Source: Lysobacter capsici (GTDB lineage: Bacteria; Pseudomonadota; Gammaproteobacteria; Xanthomonadales; Xanthomonadaceae). From it: a stretch of 64,000 bases of DNA. Where the stretch lies: assembly GCF_014779555.2 (NCBI RefSeq), contig NZ_CP094357.1, forward strand, positions 1,426,001-1,490,000, given 5' to 3'. The notes under the pieces are model-generated. The model worked only from the letters and a program-made list of their open reading frames with translations. It was not told where the DNA came from and made no database searches. Numbering within the stretch: the stretch's first letter is position 1; every line of letters begins with the position of its first letter. This document shows positions 29,971-46,831 of this stretch, one piece after another. The position numbers were made by a program, and so were the translations under genes.

Positions 29971-32289
29971 TCAGAACTTCGCCTCCACCGAAACGAACCA
30001 CTGCCGCGGCGCGCCGGTCAGCAAGGTCTGGAACGTGCCCCGCGGGTCGTAATCGCGAAACCCGTTGCTGCCGAGCGTGGCGATGTAGGTCTTGTCGAGC
30101 AGGTTGTAGACATTGAGCCCGACCCGCAGCGATTGAATCTGGCCGACATCCTTGCGCTGCCAGCTCACCCCCGCGTCCCACAGCCAGAACGCGTCGGTGC
30201 CGGCGTCGTTGCTGTAGGTGTAGTAACGCCGGCCGGTGTACTTGCCGCCCAGGCGCAGTTCGACCTCGCCCACGCCATAGCTGACTTCGGTCGCGAACAA
30301 CTGCTTGGGCGTATCCACCATCTGCTTGCCGCGTACCTCGACCAGCTTGCCGCTGCTCAGATAATTCGAGCGGTACTGCGAATCGTTGTAGGCGTAACTC
30401 GCGAGCCAGCGGAACTGCGCGGTCGGCGTCCACACGAAGGCGAACTCGCCGCCGAGCGTGCGCGCCTTGCCGACATTGGCGAACTGGTTCGGACAGCTGA
30501 CCACGCCGGGGCAGGGCACGATCACCAGTTGGCGATCGTCGAAATTGACGCCGTACAAGGTGGTCGACAGCTGGTAATGGTCGTCGCCGTAACGCCAACC
30601 CAGTTCCAGGGTCTTGGACTGTTCGGGTTTGGCGCTGGCGCGGCTGAGGTCGAACGAAGCCTGAGTCAGCGACCACGCGCCGTTGACCCCGGGCCGGAAC
30701 GCAGCCTGATTTTCGGCGTAATTGGCGAACACGTCGCTGTGTTCGTTCAAGCTCCAGGCCACGCCGAGCTGCGGCAGGAAGTTGTCGCGCGCGCGCAGCC
30801 GTCCGCCGGCGCGGCCGGCGACCACGACGGTGCCGTCGGTAACCACGTCCTGGCCCTTGAAGCCGGCGCTGACGGTCAGGCGATCGTCGAACCAGCGCAT
30901 CGTGTCCTGCACGAACCACTGGCGGGTGCGGGTGTCGAAGCGCTGGCGGAACAGGCGCTGGGCGAATTCGCTCTGATCGAAGAAGCGCTGGTCGTCGATC
31001 GGCCCGGCGATGTTGACGAAACTGCGGCCGGCGCCGTGCACGCTGTCTTCGAACCACACGCCGCCTTCGAGCGTGTGATGCTCCAGTTGGTAACTCGCGC
31101 GCGCGTTCAAACCGCTGCGTTCGATGTCGTAACTGGTGATGCGCAGCGCCATCGGGATCGTCGGCGAACTGATGTACGGCGTGAACCAGTGGCCCTGGCC
31201 TTCGTTGCGATGGTAATAAGCGGTCGCGTCCACGCGCAGTTTTTCGCTGAGGTCGAATTCGCCCGAGATGCTGGCCAGATCGTCATTGCGGAGGCCGCGC
31301 GCGAGGTAGTACGCATCGTCCTTGGTGGTCACGCAGCCGCTGAACTTGCCGTTGGCCGCGGCCAGCGCGCGCTGCCAGTCGGGCGCGTAGTTGTCCCAGT
31401 CGTAGCCGCAGCGGCGGATCAGGTCGAGCGACAGGTCCGGATCGTCGGTCTCGTTGCGGCGCGAGGTCGACAACCACGCCGCGATGCGGCCGTTGTCCCA
31501 TTGATACACGGCCTTGCCGTTGAACTGCCGCTGCTCCTGCACGCCGGCGCCCTTCCAGCGGTCGGCCTGATTGTTCATGCCCGACACGTAGGCGCTGAAG
31601 CCGTTGTGCTCGCCGGTGTCGACGCGGACGAAGGCGCGCATCGTCGCGTTGTCGCCGTAGGCGAAGTTGGCGCGCGCGCCGAACTGGCTCTGCGGGTCGG
31701 CCGAATGCAGCAGCAACGCGCCGCCGAGATTGCTGGTCGAGGGAATGCGCAACGCGCCCGCGCCCTGGGCGAGTTCGAGTTCGGCGATGTTTTCCGGCAG
31801 GATCGCGCGATTGGGCGACAGGCCGTTGTTGTTGGCGTAGCTGTTGTCGCCGAGCGGGATGTCGTCGAGCGCATAGCCCAGTTGGTTCTGGGCGAAGCCG
31901 CGGATCGCGATGCGGTTGGACCATTCGTAACTGCCCCACGGATCGGACGATACGAAATGCACGCCGGGCAGTTTCTCCAGCACCTTGACCGGGTTGGTGC
32001 CGAGTGCGACGGCCTGCAGTTCGGCCTTGCCGATGCGCTGCACCTGACGGGTTTCGCGATGGCCGACCACCGAGATCGTGTCGAGGGTGGCCGGATCGCC
32101 GGCGCCGCTGTCGAGCGGCGCGCCGCTGGCGGCGAGGCTGGCGGTCGCGTGGGTGTCGCCGGCATGGGGCGCGGTAGCGTCGGTGCTGGCGGCCGGCGCG
32201 GTTTCGGCGCGCGCGGTCGGCGCGAGCGTCGTCATCGACAGCGCGGCGAGCAAGGCCAGCGCCAGGGGCGTGCGGATCGGGGTAATCAT
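29971..32289 (-). CDS. TonB-dependent outer-membrane receptor
   Basis: A 772-residue TonB-dependent receptor. A signal peptide (MITPIRTPLALALLAALSM, ending ARA) precedes an Ala/Thr-rich linker and a TonB-box-like DTISVVGH. The plug domain follows (LEKLPGVHFVSSD, IRGFAQNQLGYALDDIPLGD), and the 22-strand barrel ends in the outer-membrane sorting sequence WFVSVEAKF. An ATG five codons upstream (32304) is also possible. The ligand is unknown. About 98 bp upstream lies the same 11-mer found before the phnM-like and phnX-like genes, so I infer that it is in the same regulon and may import an organophosphonate or its complex. Confidence 0.9.
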   Translation of the reverse strand: MITPIRTPLALALLAALSMTTLAPTARAETAPAASTDATAPHAGDTHATASLAASGAPLDSGAGDPATLDTISVVGHRETRQVQRIGKAELQAVALGTNPVKVLEKLPGVHFVSSDPWGSYEWSNRIAIRGFAQNQLGYALDDIPLGDNSYANNNGLSPNRAILPENIAELELAQGAGALRIPSTSNLGGALLLHSADPQSQFGARANFAYGDNATMRAFVRVDTGEHNGFSAYVSGMNNQADRWKGAGVQEQRQFNGKAVYQWDNGRIAAWLSTSRRNETDDPDLSLDLIRRCGYDWDNYAPDWQRALAAANGKFSGCVTTKDDAYYLARGLRNDDLASISGEFDLSEKLRVDATAYYHRNEGQGHWFTPYISSPTIPMALRITSYDIERSGLNARASYQLEHHTLEGGVWFEDSVHGAGRSFVNIAGPIDDQRFFDQSEFAQRLFRQRFDTRTRQWFVQDTMRWFDDRLTVSAGFKGQDVVTDGTVVVAGRAGGRLRARDNFLPQLGVAWSLNEHSDVFANYAENQAAFRPGVNGAWSLTQASFDLSRASAKPEQSKTLELGWRYGDDHYQLSTTLYGVNFDDRQLVIVPCPGVVSCPNQFANVGKARTLGGEFAFVWTPTAQFRWLASYAYNDSQYRSNYLSSGKLVEVRGKQMVDTPKQLFATEVSYGVGEVELRLGGKYTGRRYYTYSNDAGTDAFWLWDAGVSWQRKDVGQIQSLRVGLNVYNLLDKTYIATLGSNGFRDYDPRGTFQTLLTGAPRQWFVSVEAKF

Positions 32290-32386
32290 CGGGGTCTCGT
32301 GCATTGCGCGCCACGGTGCGGCGTGATGGCGGCATTACAACGGTCGCAGATGAAGGCTTGCGCGCGCGGGACGGACCGCGTGGCGT

Positions 32387-32397
32387 ACCTGTCTAGT
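32387..32397 (-). promoter_or_regulatory. predicted PhnF/HutC-type operator upstream of the TonB receptor
   Basis: ACCTGTCTAGT, identical to the sites at 33830 and 44021. It contains GTCTAGT, close to the GT-N-TA-N-AC pattern described for HutC-subfamily GntR regulators. It lies 98 bp upstream of the receptor start. Confidence 0.6.
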
Positions 32398-32605: not shown

Positions 32606-33742
32606 TCAATACCGCCGCTCACCCCGCACCCAAACCGCCTCGACCTGCGGCAATCCGTCGACCACGCGTACACGCAGCAGATCCGCGCGCAGCCCCGTAG
32701 CAATCTCGCCGCGATCGCGATAGCCGATCGCGCGCGCGGGCGTACGCGTGACCATCGCCACCGCGCGCGCCAGGCCGATCGATTCCCAGCCGCCGAGCTG
32801 GAACGCCGCCAGCAACAAACTGCCGGGCACGTAATCCGACGACAGCGCATCGAGCACGCCGGCGCGGGCGAGGTCGGCGGCGGCGACGTTGCCGCTATGC
32901 GAACCGCCGCGCACCAGGTTCGGTGCGCCGGCCAACACCTGCAACCCGGCCGCGTGCGCGGCGACCGCGGTGGCGAGGTTGACCGGGAATTCGGCGATGC
33001 AGGCGTTGGCTTCGACCGCTTCGGCGATGTGGATCAATTCCGAATCGTCGTGGCTCGCCAGCGGCAATCCCAGTTCCAGCGCCAAGGCGATCACCCGTTG
33101 CCGATTGGCATCGGCGTGACGGCGTTGCAAATCCTGCAGATGGCGCACGCGCGCATCGAACTGGTCGTCGTCGCGGGCGTTGCCGTGACGCGCGCTGTAG
33201 GCGCGGTAACGCTCCAGATCGTGGAACTGGCGCTGGCCCGGGGTGTGATCCATCAACGACAACAGCCGCAGCGCGGGCGTCGCGAGCAAGGGCTGCAGAC
33301 GCTGCGCCAGATCGGGGCAGGGCAGTTCGCAGCGCAGATGCACGGCGTGTTCGATGCGCAGGCTGTGCGCGGCGCGCGCATCGGCCAGCGCGCTCAGCAC
33401 CTGTTGCGGATCGACCGCTTCCTCGGCGTCCTCTTCGCCGACCGAGATCGCGTTGAGCGCGGTGGTGATGCCGGCGGCAAGCAGTTGCGCATCGTGCGCG
33501 CGCAGCGCGGCGGCGGCCGGCCAATGCGCGCCCGGACGCGGCAGCAGGTGCTTTTCCAGGTTGTCGGTGTGCAGCTCGACCAGGCCGGGCAGCAGGTAAT
33601 CGCCGTCGCAGTCGATCGCCGCGGCGTGCGCGATCCGGCCTTCGCCGATCTGCGCGATCGCGCCGTCGGCGATGCGCAGGTGGCCGTGCGCGATCGTGTC
33701 GGGCAGGACCAGGCGGGCGTTGTCGAGCAGCAGATCGGGCAT
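32606..33742 (-). CDS. phnM: PhnM-like amidohydrolase (alpha-D-ribose 1-methylphosphonate 5-triphosphate diphosphatase family)
   Basis: A 378-residue metal-dependent hydrolase of the PhnM family. The characteristic LPGLVELHTDNLEKHLLPRPG (about residues 50-70) carries the HxD metal site, LSLMDHTPGQRQF lies near residue 190, and the C-terminus has the family SSDYVPGSLLLAA. PhnM normally splits pyrophosphate from ribosylated phosphonate triphosphate within the C-P lyase pathway, but no phnG-L genes occur in the window. The divergent gene encodes a PhnF-type regulator, with one predicted operator 88 bp upstream of this start. It may serve another phosphonate or nucleotide-like substrate, or C-P lyase may be encoded elsewhere. 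Confidence 0.88.
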   Translation of the reverse strand: MPDLLLDNARLVLPDTIAHGHLRIADGAIAQIGEGRIAHAAAIDCDGDYLLPGLVELHTDNLEKHLLPRPGAHWPAAAALRAHDAQLLAAGITTALNAISVGEEDAEEAVDPQQVLSALADARAAHSLRIEHAVHLRCELPCPDLAQRLQPLLATPALRLLSLMDHTPGQRQFHDLERYRAYSARHGNARDDDQFDARVRHLQDLQRRHADANRQRVIALALELGLPLASHDDSELIHIAEAVEANACIAEFPVNLATAVAAHAAGLQVLAGAPNLVRGGSHSGNVAAADLARAGVLDALSSDYVPGSLLLAAFQLGGWESIGLARAVAMVTRTPARAIGYRDRGEIATGLRADLLRVRVVDGLPQVEAVWVRGERRY

Positions 33743-33829
33743 CGCGGTGGGCGTCCGGTGGCGGAAGGGCGGAATTTGTCATGGCCGTGCAACGCGCACG
33801 CGCTCTCATGGCCACGGGTGCGGTACTCG

Positions 33830-33840
33830 ACCTGTCTAGT
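33830..33840. promoter_or_regulatory. predicted PhnF/HutC-type operator between phnM and phnF
   Basis: ACCTGTCTAGT in the divergent promoter region, 88 bp upstream of phnM and 25 bp upstream of the regulator GTG. Its position so close to the regulator gene suggests autoregulation. Confidence 0.65.
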
Positions 33841-33864
33841 CAAGCAAGCGCAGATGGAGGTTGT

Positions 33865-34731
33865 GTGACAGCCACTGGGTCCAAACACACCGGGTTAAAG
33901 CAGGCCGGTCTCAAACAGGCGCGCCCGATCAAGGCGGGCGACGCTGCGACTGCGTCCGTCGATTCGGCCGATGCCGAGTCGGCGCCCGCCGCGCCCGCCG
34001 AGAACCTGACCCAGCGCGACGCCGCGCAACCGCTGTGGCAGCAGATCGAAACCGCCCTGCTCAAGCAGATCCGCTCCGGCGCGCTCAGCGAAGGCGACCG
34101 GCTGCCGTCGGCGTTCGATCTGGCCAAGCGTTTCGGGGTCAACCGCCACACCGTGCGGCGCGCGATCGAAGCGCTGGAGGAACGCGGCTTCCTGCGCACC
34201 GAAACCGGGCGCGGCAGTTTCGTCCAGGAGCATCCGTATCACTACCCGATCGGCCGCCGTACGCGGTTCGGCAAGGCGATGCACGATCTCAATGTCGAAA
34301 GCCGCTACCGCCTGATCGAAACCGGCCTGCAGACGCCGCCGCGCCAGGTCGCGCGCTCGCTGGGATTGATCTCGGGCGAACGCGTGCATCGCGTGGTCTA
34401 TTCCAGCGAAGTCGAGGGCCGTACCGTCGATCACAGCGAGGCGTGGTTTCCCGCGTCGCGTTTTCCCGGTCTGGACCGCGTATTCGCCGAGCAGTTGTCG
34501 GTGACCCGCACCCTGGCCGAATTCGGCGTTCACGATTATCTGCGCAAACACACCTCAGTGATGGCGCGCTTGCCCGGCGCCGAAGTCGCGCGCGTGCTCG
34601 GGCAATCGACCCGGCGACCGGTGCTGTGCGTGCATTCGCTCAATGTCGATGCGCAGGGCGTGCCGGTGCAGTTCGGGGTGACTTCGTTCGCCGGCGATTG
34701 GGTCCAGTTGATGGTGATGACCGAAACGTGA
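33865..34731 (+). CDS. phnF: GntR-family (HutC/PhnF-type) transcriptional regulator
   Basis: A 288-residue regulator. An N-terminal disordered segment of about 50 residues is followed by the winged-helix GntR domain (PLWQQIETALLKQIRSGAL, RLPSAFDLAKRFGVNRHTVRRAIEALEERGFL), then a UTRA effector domain (about 120-285, with ARSLGLISGERVHRVVYSSEVEG and HSEAWFPASRFPG). This matches phosphonate regulators such as PhnF. The start is uncertain: GTG 33865 has GGAGG four bases upstream and is preferred over ATG 33781, which would put the operator inside the gene. It is divergent from phnM. I infer that it represses the receptor, phnM and the phnX-like operon via the shared 11-mer. Confidence 0.88.
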   Translation: MTATGSKHTGLKQAGLKQARPIKAGDAATASVDSADAESAPAAPAENLTQRDAAQPLWQQIETALLKQIRSGALSEGDRLPSAFDLAKRFGVNRHTVRRAIEALEERGFLRTETGRGSFVQEHPYHYPIGRRTRFGKAMHDLNVESRYRLIETGLQTPPRQVARSLGLISGERVHRVVYSSEVEGRTVDHSEAWFPASRFPGLDRVFAEQLSVTRTLAEFGVHDYLRKHTSVMARLPGAEVARVLGQSTRRPVLCVHSLNVDAQGVPVQFGVTSFAGDWVQLMVMTET

Positions 34732-34831: not shown

Positions 34832-36856
34832 ATGTCCCGTCGCAGTTTGCGTTTCACCACTCTGGCCCTGGCTTGCGCGCTCGCTGCGCCGGCCCTGGCG
34901 AAAACGCCGAAGGTGTTGTTCATCGGCACCGACGGTTTTCGCGGCGATGTCTACGGCACGATCGCCACGCCGAATCTCGATGCGCTGGTTGCCGACGGTT
35001 ACCTCGGTCGCGAAGGCCTCACCGCCGATACCGCGATCAGCGGCACGGGTTGGTCGTCGCTGTTCACCGGCGTGGAGCGCGACAAGCACGGCGTCTACGA
35101 CAACAGTTTCAGCGGCAAGAACTACGCCGACTGGCCGGACGTGCTCAGCCGGATCGAGCGCGTCGCGCCGAGCAAGAACACCGCGGTCGCGCTGGCGTGG
35201 TCGCCGCTGGCGACGCAACTGCTGTGGACCGGCGTGGACACGGTCTACGACGCCGGCAGCGACGCCAATGTGTTGAGCAAGGCCTTGCAACTGCTCGGCC
35301 AGGCCGCCGGTCCGGACGTGCTGTTGCTCGACTTCAACGAACCCGACGGCGCCGGCCATGCCGGCACTTATTTCAATCGCGATGCGAGCGGCTACACCGA
35401 CGCGATCCGCGGCGTCGATGCATCGATCGGCAAGCTGATGACCGCGCTGCGCGCGCGGCCCAACTATGCCAACGAAGACTGGCTGGTGATCGTCGGCACC
35501 GATCACGGCGGTTCGATCCACCATGGTCACAACACGCCGGAGGATCGCAAGACCCTGATCGCCTTCAGCGGCGAATCGGTGCCCAAGCTCGGTCTGGAGC
35601 CGCTGCGCTTGGCGCCGCGTCAAGTCGATGTCGCGCCGAGCATCCTCGCCCATCTGGGATTGGTGATTCCCGCGGGCCTGGACGGACGGCCGATGCAGCG
35701 GCCCGCGCGCGAGGCCGCGCCGGCGTTCGGGGCCAATCTGCTCGCCAACGGCGATGCGGAGTATTCGGTCGGTCGCAGCGATCGCGGCTACGACAGCGAC
35801 GTGCCGGGCTGGCGCAAGGGCCGCGGCGGGCAGGTGGTCGAGTACGCGCGCTATACGTGGTTGCCGGCGCCGCTGGCCGGCGGCGGGCGCAATCTGTTTA
35901 TCGGTCGCGATACCGGCAAGAGCAATACGCTGAGTCAGCGCGTCGATCTGCGCGGTCTGGATCTTACCCAAGCACGCTTCAAGCTGTCGGCCGACCTCGG
36001 CGCCGCCAGCGGCCATCGCGCTCGCGTGCTGCTGCGCTTCTACGATCTGCGCGGGATGGCGAGTTTCGGCGCCGGCGGCAGCGGGCATGTGTTCCGCGGC
36101 GGCGACTACTACAAATATGACATCGCCGCCGATCGCGTGGTCAGCGGTTATCCGCAGCCGATCGCGACGCAATGGCCGGGCCTGGATCGGTTCGCCGGTG
36201 GCGCGCGCGATCTCGACGCGGCGTTCGAGGCCGGCAACGGCAAGGTGTATTTCTTCAAGGACGCGCAGTACCTGCGTTACGACCTCGCCGCGGGCGCGGC
36301 CGATCCGGGTTATCCCTTGGCGATCGCCGGCAATTGGCCGGGCCTGGAGAAATTCGCCGGCGGCGCGCGCGATCTAGACGCGGCGATGTTCGTCAGCCGA
36401 AGCAAGCTGTATTTCTTCAAGGGCGATCAATACATCCGCTACAACCTCGACAACGATCGCGCCGATGCCTATTACCCGGCGTATCTGTCGGAAAGCACCT
36501 GGCCGGGCACGGGTTACTGGCCGGCGTACTGGTCGGGCGCGCTGAACTTCGCCAGCGGCAAGTCGTATCTGTTCAAGCCCGGCGAGTATCTGCGTTACGA
36601 CCGCGTGCTCGATCGCGCCGACGCCGGCTATCCGGCCGCGATCAACGCATCGAACTGGCCGGGCCTGCAGGCGCTGTACGCCGGCAGCGCGTTCGAACTC
36701 GCGCCCACCGGCGGCAGTGGCGCGCTGCGCAACTACGAGCTCACTGGCGCGGTGCCGAAGGATGCGCAATGGGCTGAGGTCGAAATCCGTTTCGAGCATG
36801 CCAATGCGAACGGCGACGCGTACGCCGATCGGGTGCATCTGAGCTTGGAGCGCTGA
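34832..36856 (+). CDS. secreted alkaline-phosphatase-superfamily phosphoesterase with C-terminal hemopexin propeller
   Basis: A 674-residue exported enzyme. Signal peptide MSRRSLRFTTLALACALAAPALA. Residues about 25-300 form a nucleotide-pyrophosphatase/phosphodiesterase-like catalytic domain: FIGTDGFRGDV (metal Asp), TAISGTGWSSLFTG (nucleophile Thr/Ser region), DFNEPDGAGHAG (Asp, His), GTDHGG and HHGHNTPED. A beta-rich domain follows, then at about 412-620 four hemopexin-type repeats (KVYFFKDAQYLRYD, KLYFFKGDQYIRYN and similar) expected to form a four-bladed propeller. GGAG lies nine bases before the ATG. It follows phnF by 100 bp. Hemopexin domains bind metals, heme or proteins; here perhaps the substrate or cell surface. 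Confidence 0.85.
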   Translation: MSRRSLRFTTLALACALAAPALAKTPKVLFIGTDGFRGDVYGTIATPNLDALVADGYLGREGLTADTAISGTGWSSLFTGVERDKHGVYDNSFSGKNYADWPDVLSRIERVAPSKNTAVALAWSPLATQLLWTGVDTVYDAGSDANVLSKALQLLGQAAGPDVLLLDFNEPDGAGHAGTYFNRDASGYTDAIRGVDASIGKLMTALRARPNYANEDWLVIVGTDHGGSIHHGHNTPEDRKTLIAFSGESVPKLGLEPLRLAPRQVDVAPSILAHLGLVIPAGLDGRPMQRPAREAAPAFGANLLANGDAEYSVGRSDRGYDSDVPGWRKGRGGQVVEYARYTWLPAPLAGGGRNLFIGRDTGKSNTLSQRVDLRGLDLTQARFKLSADLGAASGHRARVLLRFYDLRGMASFGAGGSGHVFRGGDYYKYDIAADRVVSGYPQPIATQWPGLDRFAGGARDLDAAFEAGNGKVYFFKDAQYLRYDLAAGAADPGYPLAIAGNWPGLEKFAGGARDLDAAMFVSRSKLYFFKGDQYIRYNLDNDRADAYYPAYLSESTWPGTGYWPAYWSGALNFASGKSYLFKPGEYLRYDRVLDRADAGYPAAINASNWPGLQALYAGSAFELAPTGGSGALRNYELTGAVPKDAQWAEVEIRFEHANANGDAYADRVHLSLER

Positions 36857-40772: not shown

Positions 40773-41927
40773 TTACGCCGCGCGACGCATCGCACCATAG
40801 CGGCCCTCAACAATCTCCTCGGCCAGACCGAAACTCAACGTCATCCCCAGCCCGCCGCCGCCGACCGCGTTGACGATGGTCACGCCGGGCGCCGCTTCGG
40901 CGACGAATTCGCTGCTGCCGTCGGTCAGCTTGGGATAGATGCCGTGCCAGGTCTGGATCACGCGTGGGTCGGGCAGGCGCGCGAAGCGGGCCAGATAATC
41001 GAGCACTTTGGCGTTGATGGCGTGCTCGTCGAACGGGTCGTGGGTATGCGCGTAGGCGTGCGAGTCGCCGATGGTGATCTCGCCGCGGCCGTTCTGCGCC
41101 GCCATCACGTGGATGCCCAGTTCGATCAGGTCGCCGAATTGCGCCTCGTAGCGCGCGCGCAGCGGCGCCACGTCGGCGGCTTGCTGGAAACCGGCGTAAT
41201 GCACCAGCGACAGGCCGCCGCATAGCGCGGCGCCGAGGCGGAAGCCGTCGGGTTGCGGCGCCAGACGCATCATCTGCAGCTTGCAGCGGGTCAGCGGCGC
41301 GGCGGCATACAACTGCGGATAGAGCTGTTCGAACTCCGGGCCGCTGCACACGAACACCTGATCGGCGTCGAAACGCCGCGTGCCCGACCAGGCGCGACCG
41401 GTTTCGACTGCGGTCACCGGCACGCGCCAGTGAAACTCGACGCCGTAGCGTTCGTGCAGATACGCCGGGATCGTGCGCAGCGCTTCGCGCGGATCGACGA
41501 TCATTTCATCTTGGTTGAACAGCGCGCCGCGCAATCCTTCGCTGACCAAGGCCGGCGAACGCGCCAGCGCCGCGTCGCGATCGAGCAGGCTGCACGGCCG
41601 CATCGCGCGATTGGCGTGTTCGTACTGTTCCAGCACGTCCCACTCGTCCTGCGCATAGGCCAGATGCAGCGAGCCGCAGGGGTCGTGCCACAGCCGCGCA
41701 TCCTCGATCAGCTCGCGCCAGATCGCGCGCGAACGCAACGCGCGTTCGTAGGCCGCGCCGTTGGGTACGCCGATCGGCCAGATCATGCCGAAGTTGCGTA
41801 CCGATGCGCCGACCGCGCGGTCAAAGCGCTCCAGCACGGTGACGCGGTGGCCGCGCACGGCGAGCGCGCGGGCGATGGACAGGCCGACGATGCCGGCGCC
41901 GATGACGAGAGCGGAAGGAGCGTTCAT
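40773..41927 (-). CDS. FAD-dependent amine oxidase, HpnW/PbfD-type (TIGR03364-like)
   Basis: A 384-residue DAO-family flavoenzyme. The N-terminal Rossmann motif is VIGAGIVGLSIARALAVRG (about residues 8-26) followed by the Glu in TVLER; the C-terminal FAD segment is VNAVGGGGLGMTLSFGLAEEI. This clade is known to travel with PhnX-like phosphonatases, and a related enzyme (PbfD) oxidises N-methylated 2-aminoethylphosphonate to phosphonoacetaldehyde. Here it is the last gene of an operon with the DUF5690 transporter (18-bp gap) and a PhnX-like hydrolase. I assign the role by sequence type and neighbours; the exact amine substrate is not determined by what I can see. Confidence 0.85.
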   Translation of the reverse strand: MNAPSALVIGAGIVGLSIARALAVRGHRVTVLERFDRAVGASVRNFGMIWPIGVPNGAAYERALRSRAIWRELIEDARLWHDPCGSLHLAYAQDEWDVLEQYEHANRAMRPCSLLDRDAALARSPALVSEGLRGALFNQDEMIVDPREALRTIPAYLHERYGVEFHWRVPVTAVETGRAWSGTRRFDADQVFVCSGPEFEQLYPQLYAAAPLTRCKLQMMRLAPQPDGFRLGAALCGGLSLVHYAGFQQAADVAPLRARYEAQFGDLIELGIHVMAAQNGRGEITIGDSHAYAHTHDPFDEHAINAKVLDYLARFARLPDPRVIQTWHGIYPKLTDGSSEFVAEAAPGVTIVNAVGGGGLGMTLSFGLAEEIVEGRYGAMRRAA

Positions 41928-41945
41928 GCGATGGTTTCGAAAGAC

Positions 41946-43241
41946 TCAGACGGGCGCGAGCGCCGCCGCGGCGACGCGACGGGTGACGCGATGGTGGAAG
42001 TACAGCGCCGAAGCGATCAGGCATGCGCCGCCGATCATCGCCAGCGTCAGCACGATCTGGGCGAAGAACTGGGTCCACGACAGCTGCACGCCGGAAAATT
42101 CCTTGGTCAGCAGCACCGCGACGCTGCCCAGATAGCCGAAGGCATCCGACAGGTACATCAGGAAGCCGACGTTGCCGGCAACGCGGAAGGTCGCGATCAG
42201 GCGCTCGTAGAACACGCAGTTGAACGGCACATAGGCCAGATACAGACCGAAGCCGACCAGGGCCAGCCACCACAGCGGCGGCAGCGCGCCGGCGCGGAAC
42301 GCGAGCGTGCTGATGCCCGCCACCGCCAGGCCGGCGAACATCAGCCCGTGCAAGGCCATCAGGCCGCGCAGATTGTCGCGGAACCACGTCAGTCCCGCGG
42401 TCAAGGCGAGCACCGCCAACGCGATCGGCGTTTCGATCAGCGCGAACACGCCGGCATTGCCGCCATAGCCCAGATCGGCGAACAACTCGGCTTCGAAGTT
42501 GTCGCGAAAATCGCGCACCACGGTCAACGCGACATAGCAGCCGATCATCAGCACCAGCCCCGGCAGGAAGCCGCGCACGAAGGCCATGCGTTCGGCGCGG
42601 CTCATCGGCTGGCGTTCGCTGCGTTCGCGCCGGTCGTCGGCGTCGGGCTCGGGCACGCGTTCGAGAAAATGCACCGCGATCAGCAACAGCGGCAGAAACA
42701 GCAGGCCGGTCACGAACGGCATCCAGAACTCATCGACGCCCGACAGCAGCAGCCATTTGCCGACGCTTTTGACCACGCCGGAGGCCATGATGAAACTCGA
42801 AGCGAGGATCGCGCCCATCGCCTCGGTGGTGCGGCGGCCTTCCAGGTAACTGAACACCAGGCCCCAGACCATGCCCAGCGGCAGGCCGTTGAGGAACAGG
42901 AACGGGATGTTCCAGGGCGCCGGCGTCAGCGCGAACCCCAGCAGCGCCAGCCAGGCGATGCCGATCAGGCTCAGCAGCAAACGCGCGCGGTGTTCGCGGC
43001 GCAACCCGCCGATCACGCCGATACCGACGAACTTGCTGCACATATAGCCCAGGATCTGCGCGACCACCAGCCAGACTTTGTAGTCGACGCCGAACAGCGG
43101 ATGCCCGGCGAACGACGCGGCGGCGAACGGTTTGCGGAACGCGTACATGCAGGCATAGGTGACCAGCGCCGCGCCGCCGGCGAGCAGGGTCACCTGCCAC
43201 TGGCGCGCGCGTTCGCTGGTCGGGGCGCGCAACGCGTTCAT
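41946..43241 (-). CDS. DUF5690 MFS-type transporter, candidate phosphonate importer
   Basis: A 431-residue inner-membrane protein with about twelve helices and an MFS-like layout. The first loop YAFRKPFAAASF and the segment LGMVWGLVFSYLEGRRTTEAMGAILASSF are typical of DUF5690 proteins, which resemble sugar-phosphate/glycerol-3-phosphate antiporters. A cytoplasmic loop (about 210-235) is charged. Its ATG overlaps the stop of the PhnX-like gene (ATGA at 43238-43241), so the two are coupled. It replaces the usual phosphonate ABC transporter genes, so uptake of the phosphonate across the inner membrane is the natural inference. Confidence 0.83.
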   Translation of the reverse strand: MNALRAPTSERARQWQVTLLAGGAALVTYACMYAFRKPFAAASFAGHPLFGVDYKVWLVVAQILGYMCSKFVGIGVIGGLRREHRARLLLSLIGIAWLALLGFALTPAPWNIPFLFLNGLPLGMVWGLVFSYLEGRRTTEAMGAILASSFIMASGVVKSVGKWLLLSGVDEFWMPFVTGLLFLPLLLIAVHFLERVPEPDADDRRERSERQPMSRAERMAFVRGFLPGLVLMIGCYVALTVVRDFRDNFEAELFADLGYGGNAGVFALIETPIALAVLALTAGLTWFRDNLRGLMALHGLMFAGLAVAGISTLAFRAGALPPLWWLALVGFGLYLAYVPFNCVFYERLIATFRVAGNVGFLMYLSDAFGYLGSVAVLLTKEFSGVQLSWTQFFAQIVLTLAMIGGACLIASALYFHHRVTRRVAAAALAPV

Positions 43242-43936
43242 GCGGCGGCGTGGCGCGCGTCGCGGTCGGACGCATCCAGCCCCAGCAGGGCCGGCAGTTC
43301 GAACAGGCCATCGATGATGCGGTCGGGCGCGTAGGGCTCGAGTTCGGCACGGGTGAACGCGCCGGTGGTGACCGCCACCACCAGGCCGACCCGGGCCGCG
43401 CGGCCTTCGCCGATATCGACCTCGGTGTCGCCGATCTTGATCACCTGGGCCGGATCGTCGATCCGCAGGCGTTGCATCAGCGCGTGGATCATGTCCGGCG
43501 CCGGCCGGCCCTGCGCGACTTCGTCGCTGGCGATCAGCGCGTCGATGCGTTGCGACCACTGCAGGCGCTCGACGATGGCGTCGGCGATGTCGCGCGAAAA
43601 CCCGGTGTTCAGCGCGACCTGGATGCCGTTCGCGCGCAGTACCGCGAACACCGATTCGGCGCCGGGCAACGGCTCGATGCCGGGCCATTCGCGATAGCAC
43701 ACCAGCATGCGCTGGACGAAGTCGGCATGGATCGCGGCGATCCGCGGGTCATCGGCCTGTGTACCGAGCAGCCGCGCGATCGCCAGCGGCTTGGGATAGC
43801 CCATCAGCGGCCGGCAGGCCTCGTGGTCGATCGGGTGGCCGGCGGCGCTCATCGCGCCGACGAAGGCCTGGGCGACGAAGCCGGGGTCCGACACGGTGGT
43901 GCCGGCGATATCGAACAGGGCAAGGCGGAAGGTCAT
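43238..43936 (-). CDS. PhnX-like phosphonatase (HAD family, TIGR03351-like)
   Basis: A 232-residue HAD hydrolase with the features that set phosphonatases apart. Motif I is FDIAGTTV (nucleophile Asp9, Ala at +2 instead of Asp), the cap has the Schiff-base Lys in LMGYPKP (Lys49), and Arg replaces the usual Lys before motif III (VAQGRPAPDM), which ends KIGDTEVDIGEG. These residues predict cleavage of a C-P bond in phosphonoacetaldehyde or a close analogue. ATG 43936 is used; the frame is open to 43987. First gene of the operon, with the shared operator 85 bp upstream. A -35/-10 pair (TTCACC, 17 bp, TAATAA) can be drawn between operator and gene. Confidence 0.88.
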   Translation of the reverse strand: MTFRLALFDIAGTTVSDPGFVAQAFVGAMSAAGHPIDHEACRPLMGYPKPLAIARLLGTQADDPRIAAIHADFVQRMLVCYREWPGIEPLPGAESVFAVLRANGIQVALNTGFSRDIADAIVERLQWSQRIDALIASDEVAQGRPAPDMIHALMQRLRIDDPAQVIKIGDTEVDIGEGRAARVGLVVAVTTGAFTRAELEPYAPDRIIDGLFELPALLGLDASDRDARHAAA

Positions 43937-44020
43937 CGCGGCGGGACGCACTGGGGAACAGGCGTCCAGCATGGGCGGCGTGCGCAACCCGGTTATTACA
44001 GCGCGGGGACAAGTGGGTGA

Positions 44021-44031
44021 ACCTGTCTAGT
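44021..44031 (-). promoter_or_regulatory. predicted PhnF/HutC-type operator upstream of the PhnX-like operon
   Basis: ACCTGTCTAGT, identical to the sites at 32387 and 33830 and in the same orientation, 85 bp upstream of the PhnX-like start and abutting the possible -35 TTCACC on the minus strand. Confidence 0.62.
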
Positions 44032-45179: not shown

Positions 45180-45653
45180 TCAGGTCCGCCCCGCGAACAT
45201 CGCTTTCACCGACGGTCGGTTTAACACGATCAGGGTGAATACGCCCAGCGCGGTGCCGAATGGAATCTGCATGCACGACACCGCGGCCACGACGATGCAC
45301 AAGGTGAGACTGCGCCGCTGGCTCAGACGGCGCGCGGCCATCAAGGTCAGGATGCCGCCGACGATTCCGATGAACATCATCGCCGCGGCCAGGCCCAGCA
45401 GCACCCAGCCCGATGCGGTGTCCTGGGTCGCGGTATCGGCCGGCAGCGTGCCGTTGAGCAGGCCCAAGCCCATGAACGCGTACAGCGCGCCGATCAGCAG
45501 CGGCAGCAGATTGAAGCTGGAGAAAACGTAATACAGGATGCTCAGCGTCCTCAGGTACGACGCGTCGCGCGGATCTTCCGTCGTCATCGGTTCGTGGCTC
45601 GTGTGGATCGGAACGTTCATCGCGGGCGGCGGGTCGCTGTCGATGCGCGGCAT
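45180..45653 (-). CDS. small multipass membrane protein, tandem paralogue 3
   Basis: A 157-residue protein with a polar N-terminus of about 35 residues and four predicted helices. It shares the ILYYVFSSFN segment, the RRLSQRR loop and the ending IPFGTALGVFTLIVLNRPSV with the genes at 45835 and 46352. Its ATG overlaps the stop of the 60-residue gene upstream (TGATG at 45651-45655), so the three genes 46287 to 45180 form one coupled operon. Function unknown. Confidence 0.65.
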   Translation of the reverse strand: MPRIDSDPPPAMNVPIHTSHEPMTTEDPRDASYLRTLSILYYVFSSFNLLPLLIGALYAFMGLGLLNGTLPADTATQDTASGWVLLGLAAAMMFIGIVGGILTLMAARRLSQRRSLTLCIVVAAVSCMQIPFGTALGVFTLIVLNRPSVKAMFAGRT

Positions 45654-45835
45654 CAGCCGGCACCGCGCAGATACGCCTGCAGGAAATCGACCAGCGCGGC
45701 GACGTCGCGATCCGACAGCTCGACCGGATCGCCCGCTCCGCTCAGCGCCTTGATATGGATCGCGTTGTCCTGCTCCACCCAGGCGCGCAACTGCCCGTCG
45801 GACAATGCGATGGCGACGGGCGCGCCGTCGCTCAT
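45653..45835 (-). CDS. 60-residue small protein inside the membrane-protein operon
   Basis: A small acidic protein (MSDGAPVAIALSDGQLRAWV, later VELSDRDVAALVDFLQAYL). No membrane helix. It overlaps both neighbours by one base (TGATG at each end), which is strong support that it is translated. The C-terminal helix could dock to a partner, perhaps the flanking membrane proteins. No family recognised. Confidence 0.6.
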   Translation of the reverse strand: MSDGAPVAIALSDGQLRAWVEQDNAIHIKALSGAGDPVELSDRDVAALVDFLQAYLRGAG

Positions 45836-46287
45836 CAGGCCCGCTCGCCGAACAAGGCGCGCACCGACGGACGATTGAGCACGATCAGGGTGAACACGCC
45901 CAGCGCGGTGCCGAACGGAATCGACAGGCAGGTCACCGCCGCGACGATCTGGCAGAACTTGAACCCGCGGCGTTGGCGCAGGCGCTGGCCGACCATGAAG
46001 TGCAGCGCCGCGAACAGCAGGCATAGCAGGGTGAAGAAGACGAAAAAGCCGATGATCATCGGCAGCGCGGCATCCATGTCGGCGTTGGGGCCGCTTTCGG
46101 GCGCGGCGCTGAACACCGCGCCCATCAGCACGCCGTAGAACCCCATCAGCAGCACCGAAAACGCGTTCAGGCCGGCGAACACGTAGTAGAAGATCGCCAG
46201 AATCTGCAGATGCGAGGCATCGTCGGGATTGGCGGCGGGCGGCGGCGAGTGCGGTTGCGATGAAACGGGCGGGTAGTCGGACATCAC
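45835..46287 (-). CDS. small multipass membrane protein, tandem paralogue 2
   Basis: A 150-residue paralogue with N-terminal Pro-rich tail, ILAIFYYVFAGLNAFSVLLMG, a QRLRQRRGF loop and the ending CLSIPFGTALGVFTLIVLNRPSVRALF. First gene of the coupled trio; the fourth relative lies 64 bp upstream. Function unknown; the invariant Pro-Phe-Gly-Thr-Ala-Leu-Gly-Val-Phe helix marks the family. Confidence 0.65.
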   Translation of the reverse strand: MMSDYPPVSSQPHSPPPAANPDDASHLQILAIFYYVFAGLNAFSVLLMGFYGVLMGAVFSAAPESGPNADMDAALPMIIGFFVFFTLLCLLFAALHFMVGQRLRQRRGFKFCQIVAAVTCLSIPFGTALGVFTLIVLNRPSVRALFGERA

Positions 46288-46351
46288 GGGATCCCCCTGG
46301 GTTGGATGCGGCGGTTGAAATGTCGGAAGCGTTCGCGCCGCCGATCGGAAG

Positions 46352-46831
46352 TTACTTCGCGTCGGCGGGCGCGGATTCGAACACGGCCCTGATCGGCGCC
46401 TTGGTCAGCACGACCAGGGCGAACACGCCCAGCGCGGTGCCGAACGGCATCGACAGGCAGCTCACGGCGCTGGCGACCACGCAGAACATATAGCCGCGAC
46501 GTTGCCGCAGCCTGCGCGCGACCATCACGAACAGCGCCGTCAGGATCATGCCGAAGCCGATCAGCGACACCGCCACGCCGACGAACAACCAACCGACCAG
46601 CGCGGCGTCGTGCGCCGGCTGTCCAGGCTGCGCCGGAAGCATGAGGATGCCGATGCCGGCGATCAGATGGATCACCGGAAACAGCGCGAACAGCGCGGTG
46701 ATGCCGGCGAGGACGTAATAAAGGATCCCGATCGTGTCGAGATGAGCGAGGTCCTGCGCGGACGGCTCGGCGGCGACCGATGCCGTCGCCGGAAGGGCGG
46801 GCGGCTCGGCTGGAATAGGGGCGTGGTCCAT
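46352..46831 (-). CDS. small multipass membrane protein, tandem paralogue 1
   Basis: A 159-residue paralogue of the two genes downstream: IGILYYVLAGITALFALFPV, RRLRQRRGYMFC and CLSMPFGTALGVFALVVLTKAPI. ATG 46831 (MDHAPIPAEPP) gives a polar, Pro-rich N-terminus like its relatives; the frame is open to 46921. Probably cotranscribed with the genes to 45180. Confidence 0.65.
   Translation of the reverse strand: MDHAPIPAEPPALPATASVAAEPSAQDLAHLDTIGILYYVLAGITALFALFPVIHLIAGIGILMLPAQPGQPAHDAALVGWLFVGVAVSLIGFGMILTALFVMVARRLRQRRGYMFCVVASAVSCLSMPFGTALGVFALVVLTKAPIRAVFESAPADAK

Follow-up and report, generated by a model that had tools for sequence, protein, structure and literature searches.

We examined a stretch of 64,000 nucleotides (nt) from Lysobacter capsici (contig NZ_CP094357.1, positions 1,426,001 to 1,490,000; hereafter the window, with coordinates counted from its first letter), centering on an operon that encodes a membrane protein of the DUF5690 family between two enzymes. 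The source genome, of 6.24 Mb in one contig, was the scope of all genome-wide motif and family scans. Three co-directional genes on the minus strand (43936-40773) were observed in the order HAD hydrolase, DUF5690 and FAD oxidase:

43238-43936, minus strand: HAD hydrolase, PhnX-like, a probable phosphonoacetaldehyde hydrolase; 232 amino acids (aa), from TIGR03351 and TIGR01422 scores and residues aligned with PhnX
41946-43241, minus strand: DUF5690 membrane protein, a probable single-component aminophosphonate importer; 431 aa, from PF18943, a major facilitator superfamily (MFS) fold, a profile match to the organophosphate:phosphate antiporter (OPA) family and gene linkage
40773-41927, minus strand: FAD-dependent amine oxidase, TIGR03364/PbfD type; 384 aa, from its TIGR03364 score

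A first-pass annotation made from the sequence had described a three-gene operon coupled by ATGA, and the gene calls bore this out, with the HAD and DUF5690 genes overlapping in an ATGA at 43241-43238 and a gap of 18 nt between DUF5690 and the oxidase gene. The HAD start was taken as the ATG at 43936, and an in-frame TTG was observed further upstream at 43987. The same gene order was kept in every Lysobacter and Stenotrophomonas DUF5690 locus found, which argues that the arrangement is not due to chance. The DUF5690 protein was 98% identical to that of Lysobacter sp. Root690.

Linkage and fold of DUF5690

The membrane protein matched PF18943 (DUF5690) at 540.6 bits (gathering cut-off 25), and we found no literature on this family. 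A count of how often DUF5690 co-occurs with the two enzyme families had been proposed in the first-pass annotation. We gathered DUF5690 loci irrespective of their neighbours: a search of 397 Pseudomonadota genomes gave matches in 12 (11 above cut-off), a genome collection added 72 loci, and three annotated plasmid records were also added. Phosphonate catabolic genes were observed in the fetched flanks of 57 of the 83 loci. Grouping at 80% identity gave 35 clusters, of which 24 were linked, with a phosphonate-degradation gene (PhnX-type, PbfD, PhnW, PhnZ-type, PbfA or C-P lyase) no more than about 7 kb away. These linked clusters span at least five phyla. In contrast, none of 16 control loci of OPA/MFS transporters was linked (Fisher p 1.9e-6 versus DUF5690), while all four AepP-like loci, our positive control, adjoined PhnW-PhnX.

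Partner identities were verified with curated models. The expected HAD and PbfD partners were present in Lysobacter and Stenotrophomonas, but the linkage was not confined to these families and included PhnX-PhnW in Parabacteroides, Bacteroides and Shewanella, a PhnZ-type oxygenase in Spirosoma, C-P lyase genes in Dyella, and PbfA as a further partner type. An annotated Novosphingobium plasmid record carried DUF5690-TIGR03364-PhnX. We also observed DUF5690-phnX-phnW on plasmid records of Parabacteroides distasonis (L109 4267-7550) and Bacteroides finegoldii (L110 7926-11264). A phn gene lay on the same strand and at most 150 nt from DUF5690 in 28 of 52 linked loci, and in a quick DUF5690 tree, whose long branches are uncertain, the context type switched at least 17 times while DUF5690 stayed. 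Its presence beside almost all known kinds of phosphonate-degrading genes across several phyla gives a concrete hypothesis for its function.

The AlphaFold2 model of DUF5690 (predicted local distance difference test score 90.3) contained 12 long helices in an MFS fold. A Foldseek search against the PDB returned human G6PT/SLC37A4, an OPA antiporter, as its top seven matches at 17-19% identity, and in VIA the two aligned over 362 residues with a Z of 32.8 and a root-mean-square deviation of 3.4. Full-length MFS matches had Z values of about 28-33, so that with other MFS proteins scoring close behind G6PT the fold alone cannot single out the OPA family. Unlike the fold, profile comparison picked out OPA, with an hhalign probability of 93 (E 3.5e-7) for DUF5690 against an OPA alignment versus 0.1 for the control against another MFS family, itself a strong OPA match. 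The alignment paired DUF5690 and GlpT residues as R35/R45, Y32/Y42, Y65/Y76, K69/K80 and R242/R269. Three of the GlpT residues (R45, K80, R269) belong to the phosphate site, and the matched DUF5690 residues, including R35, K69 and R242, were invariant in 43 diverse DUF5690 sequences. DUF5690 is thus like GlpT, UhpT and G6PT in its 12-helix MFS fold, in having them as nearest solved structures and in keeping the R45/K80/R269 positions, but its sequence is remote, with about 17-20% of residues identical when the structures are aligned.

A functional precedent is AepP, a characterised GlpT-related permease for 2-aminoethylphosphonate (AEP) from Pseudomonas putida BIRD-1 that shares the phosphate-binding residues of GlpT (PMC8316502). 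Both AepP and DUF5690 are one-component MFS proteins linked to AEP catabolism in which these residues are kept. However, AepP-like proteins match MFS_1 and are 25-30% identical to GlpT over the alignment, whereas DUF5690 matches PF18943 only and is tied to the OPA family at the profile and fold level only; a GlpT search of the genome did not retrieve it. Taking linkage, profile and model together, DUF5690 is most likely a one-protein importer of aminophosphonates, as the first-pass annotation had suggested; it would be a counterpart of AepP from a different family.

Few steps in phosphonate use are as poorly understood as transport. DUF5690 is found repeatedly next to genes of hydrolytic, oxidative and C-P-lyase pathways, in bacteria from soil, water and the gut, and it provides a marker for phosphonate uptake where the usual ABC importers are absent, including the Parabacteroides and Bacteroides plasmid records. 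The proposed function is directly testable, since it involves a single gene, a single class of candidate substrates and three candidate residues.

Several observations weigh against an aminophosphonate importer. The OPA match is remote: the DUF5690 profile found no match among PDB sequences at E 10, so that the relation depends on the fold search and the profile-profile alignment, and three DUF5690 proteins gave no match to MFS_1 (PF07690) at E 0.001. Binding proteins of PF12974 and PF13343 were found above cut-off in the genome and could serve other importers. For Dyella and part of the Spirosoma loci, the distance to the phosphonate gene was 2-6 kb, which places it outside the DUF5690 operon, and about one-third of the DUF5690 loci had no nearby phosphonate gene (Larkinella, Runella, several alphaproteobacteria). 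Some loci adjoined phosphatases or phosphodiesterases, for which PF00149 and PF01663 were confirmed in representatives; the phospholipase-C-like and PhoX-like genes were named by eye.

A transporter with a wider range of organophosphates (glycerol-3-phosphate, phosphoethanolamine and similar esters), for which phosphonates would be one substrate or a by-product of shared phosphorus-scavenging loci, would also accommodate the unlinked loci and the phosphatase-type neighbours. The related OPA family does carry phosphate esters, and some loci without phosphonate genes have metallophosphoesterase, glycerophosphodiesterase-, phospholipase-C- or PhoX-like neighbours (by eye). We nevertheless consider this rather unlikely, as genes specific to phosphonates accompany the majority of clusters, often in overlapping or adjacent operons, and belong to pathways that differ by phylum.

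Among these neighbours, loci L019 and L020 place DUF5690 by DeoR regulators and glycerophosphodiesterase-, metallophosphoesterase- or phospholipase-C-like genes (by eye), without phosphonate genes. A phospholipase-C-like family of about 700 aa (by eye) recurs near DUF5690 (L015, L020, L022, L039, L040, L044, L046, L047, L081), and its members might free phosphonates from lipids.

The two enzymes and the proposed pathway

The oxidase scored 406.6 bits against TIGR03364, above the curated cut-off of 285.1, in agreement with its earlier placement in a DAO-type clade that neighbours such hydrolases. This family includes the characterised PbfD1; PbfD enzymes convert N-methyl-AEP to phosphonoacetaldehyde, and PbfD2 also converts AEP, without PhnW (PMC10590968). 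Profile searches of the whole genome found no PhnW, PhnX or PhnJ above cut-off, and the top TIGR01422 match in the genome was the operon HAD. Together with PbfD chemistry these absences make a PhnW-free route plausible for the operon, and the earlier proposal of oxidation followed by C-P cleavage was upheld. Such a route is already published for PbfD2 and hence is not novel (PMC10590968); the novelty lies in DUF5690. The PbfD2 cluster of Mariniblastus fucicola likewise has a TIGR03364-type oxidase and a C-P hydrolase without PhnW (PMC10590968), while in Lysobacter the hydrolase is a divergent PhnX-like HAD and the two enzyme genes are separated by that for DUF5690. We rejected a role of the operon in C-P lyase degradation because PhnJ was absent from the genome and from the three triad-bearing Lysobacter and Stenotrophomonas relatives tested (G147, G557, G684).

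Phosphonatase-specific residues had been noted in the HAD (DIAGTT, cap Lys49, an Arg ahead of motif III). Alignment with true PhnX proteins confirmed them, the HAD and its homologues retaining DxAGT (D9-I-A-G-T-T in the HAD), cap Lys49, the GRP Arg and IGDT. In PhnX chemistry the cap Lys forms a Schiff base, and K49 is its equivalent here. Three results speak against assigning the HAD to PhnX outright. Its best family was TIGR03351 ('phosphonatase-like' or 'PhnX-like'), of which we found no mention in the literature, at 194.6 bits and under the curated cut-off of 218.9; its score against TIGR01422 (PhnX) was 107.9 bits, under the cut-off of 220; and the His of the PhnX cap motif K-x-D-H was missing in the HAD and its homologues. 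Homologues adjoining DUF5690 elsewhere scored 186-214 bits with TIGR03351, all just below the cut-off, indicating that these HADs are a coherent sister set. In Novosphingobium the DUF5690-TIGR03364 pair was accompanied by a true PhnX (344 bits, cut-off 220) in place of the HAD, which argues that the HAD fills the PhnX role. Given the scores below cut-off and the absent His, we grade PhnX (phosphonoacetaldehyde hydrolase) activity of the HAD, predicted from sequence, as likely only.

The same scores and missing His would fit a HAD that is not a phosphonoacetaldehyde hydrolase, the two enzymes using a different aminophosphonate such as 1-hydroxy-AEP, which was proposed in the TIGR03364 family description (quoted in PMC10590968). 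This reading, compatible with DUF5690 as an importer, appears unlikely, because characterised PbfD enzymes yield phosphonoacetaldehyde from N-methyl-AEP or AEP (PMC10590968) and a true PhnX replaces the HAD in Novosphingobium.

We consider it probable that the operon imports and mineralises AEP and/or N-methyl-AEP. DUF5690 would act as a one-protein MFS carrier that brings the phosphonate through the inner membrane, and it may exchange it for phosphate in the manner of OPA transporters. The PbfD-type flavoenzyme, by analogy with PbfD1 and PbfD2, would convert the amine to phosphonoacetaldehyde with formation of ammonia or methylamine and H2O2, and the HAD would cut the C-P bond with Lys49 forming the Schiff base, as in PhnX, to give acetaldehyde and phosphate.

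Several compact operons have DUF5690 as the sole transporter beside the enzymes, and DUF5690 also lies near C-P lyase loci, which usually serve phosphorus starvation, a condition under which phosphate export would make no sense. Both points make it very improbable that DUF5690 is an exporter, for example of phosphate from phosphonates used for carbon or nitrogen, with another system importing them, even though phosphate is a ligand of OPA-type sites, the genome has further binding-protein importers and Stappia is reported to export phosphate while growing on AEP as nitrogen source (PMC8316502).

Candidate PhnF operators and neighbouring genes

Genes for PhnF, PhnM and a TonB receptor, which the first-pass annotation did not include, were observed 7-14 kb from the operon. 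A shared site was first found by comparing upstream regions:

44021-44031, minus strand: candidate PhnF operator ACTAGACAGGT, 84 nt before the start codon (ATG) of the HAD gene; same place in relatives
33830-33840, minus strand: candidate PhnF operator 87 nt before the start codon (ATG) of phnM, lying between this gene and the divergent phnF
32387-32397, minus strand: candidate PhnF operator, 82 nt before the start codon (ATG) of the TonB receptor gene
33781-34731, plus strand: PhnF regulator (GntR/HutC); TIGR02325 229.5 bits, cut-off 156.8
32606-33742, minus strand: PhnM; TIGR02318 437.7 bits, cut-off 390.55
29971-32304, minus strand: TonB-dependent outer-membrane receptor, a probable regulon member; PF00593, PF07715, candidate operator upstream
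34832-36856, plus strand: alkaline-phosphatase-superfamily phosphodiesterase with hemopexin repeats and a signal-like N-terminus; PF01663 64.1 bits, PF00045 107.7 bits

The 10-base motif CTAGACAGGT occurred exactly three times in the genome, all within the window, compared with 15 occurrences of the reversed control pattern. Each occurrence was 82-87 nt upstream of a start codon and on the same strand as the gene. When two mismatches were allowed the window count was 4 versus 3.0 by chance, which is no excess, and only the exact-match result is meaningful. Within the site, CTAGAC fits one half (MTAKAC) of GTMTAKAC, the HutC consensus (PMC4494728), making PhnF the obvious candidate regulator. 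The position of this genome-unique motif upstream of the operon, of phnM (beside phnF) and of the TonB receptor gene suggests that the candidate operators define a PhnF regulon, in which PhnF would probably control all three through the common site. The TIGR02325 match starts at residue 79 of the phnF open reading frame, and the true phnF start is probably downstream of 33840.

In nearly all relatives the site was also observed 93-95 nt before the HAD ATG (from the site start), and it was found between phnF and phnM in relatives as well. In Stenotrophomonas rhizophila (L036) there was no motif upstream of HAD or phnM (best 4-5 mismatches). The arrangement resembles PhnF-regulated C-P lyase operons in having PhnF and PhnM nearby, and in Dyella sites of the CTAGACAGGT type are located between phnF and the genes for C-P lyase (phnG). 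It differs in that the Lysobacter genome has kept phnM without C-P lyase, as have the three relatives above, and in its predicted regulon of triad, phnM and TonB receptor. Dyella loci L042, L044, L045, L047 and L097 have DUF5690 near C-P lyase operons, several with one or two CTAGACAGGT-like sites between phnF and phnG.

The phosphodiesterase gene begins 100 nt after phnF, and on the basis of position only its product is a possible, weakly assigned phosphonate-ester hydrolase. A wider proposal, which we regard as tentative and somewhat doubtful, is that DUF5690 represents a new phylum-crossing family of aminophosphonate:phosphate antiporters and that, in Lysobacter and Stenotrophomonas, it handles inner-membrane passage within a complete scavenging system under PhnF control. 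The secreted phosphodiesterase would free phosphonates from lipid or glycan esters, the TonB receptor would take them up and DUF5690 would import them, while PhnM would have been recruited to a new step.

Upstream of the operon (45180-46831) we observed three similar-looking tandem small membrane proteins of 150-160 aa, a repeated family (cluster c38) also found at the matching place in other Lysobacter loci.

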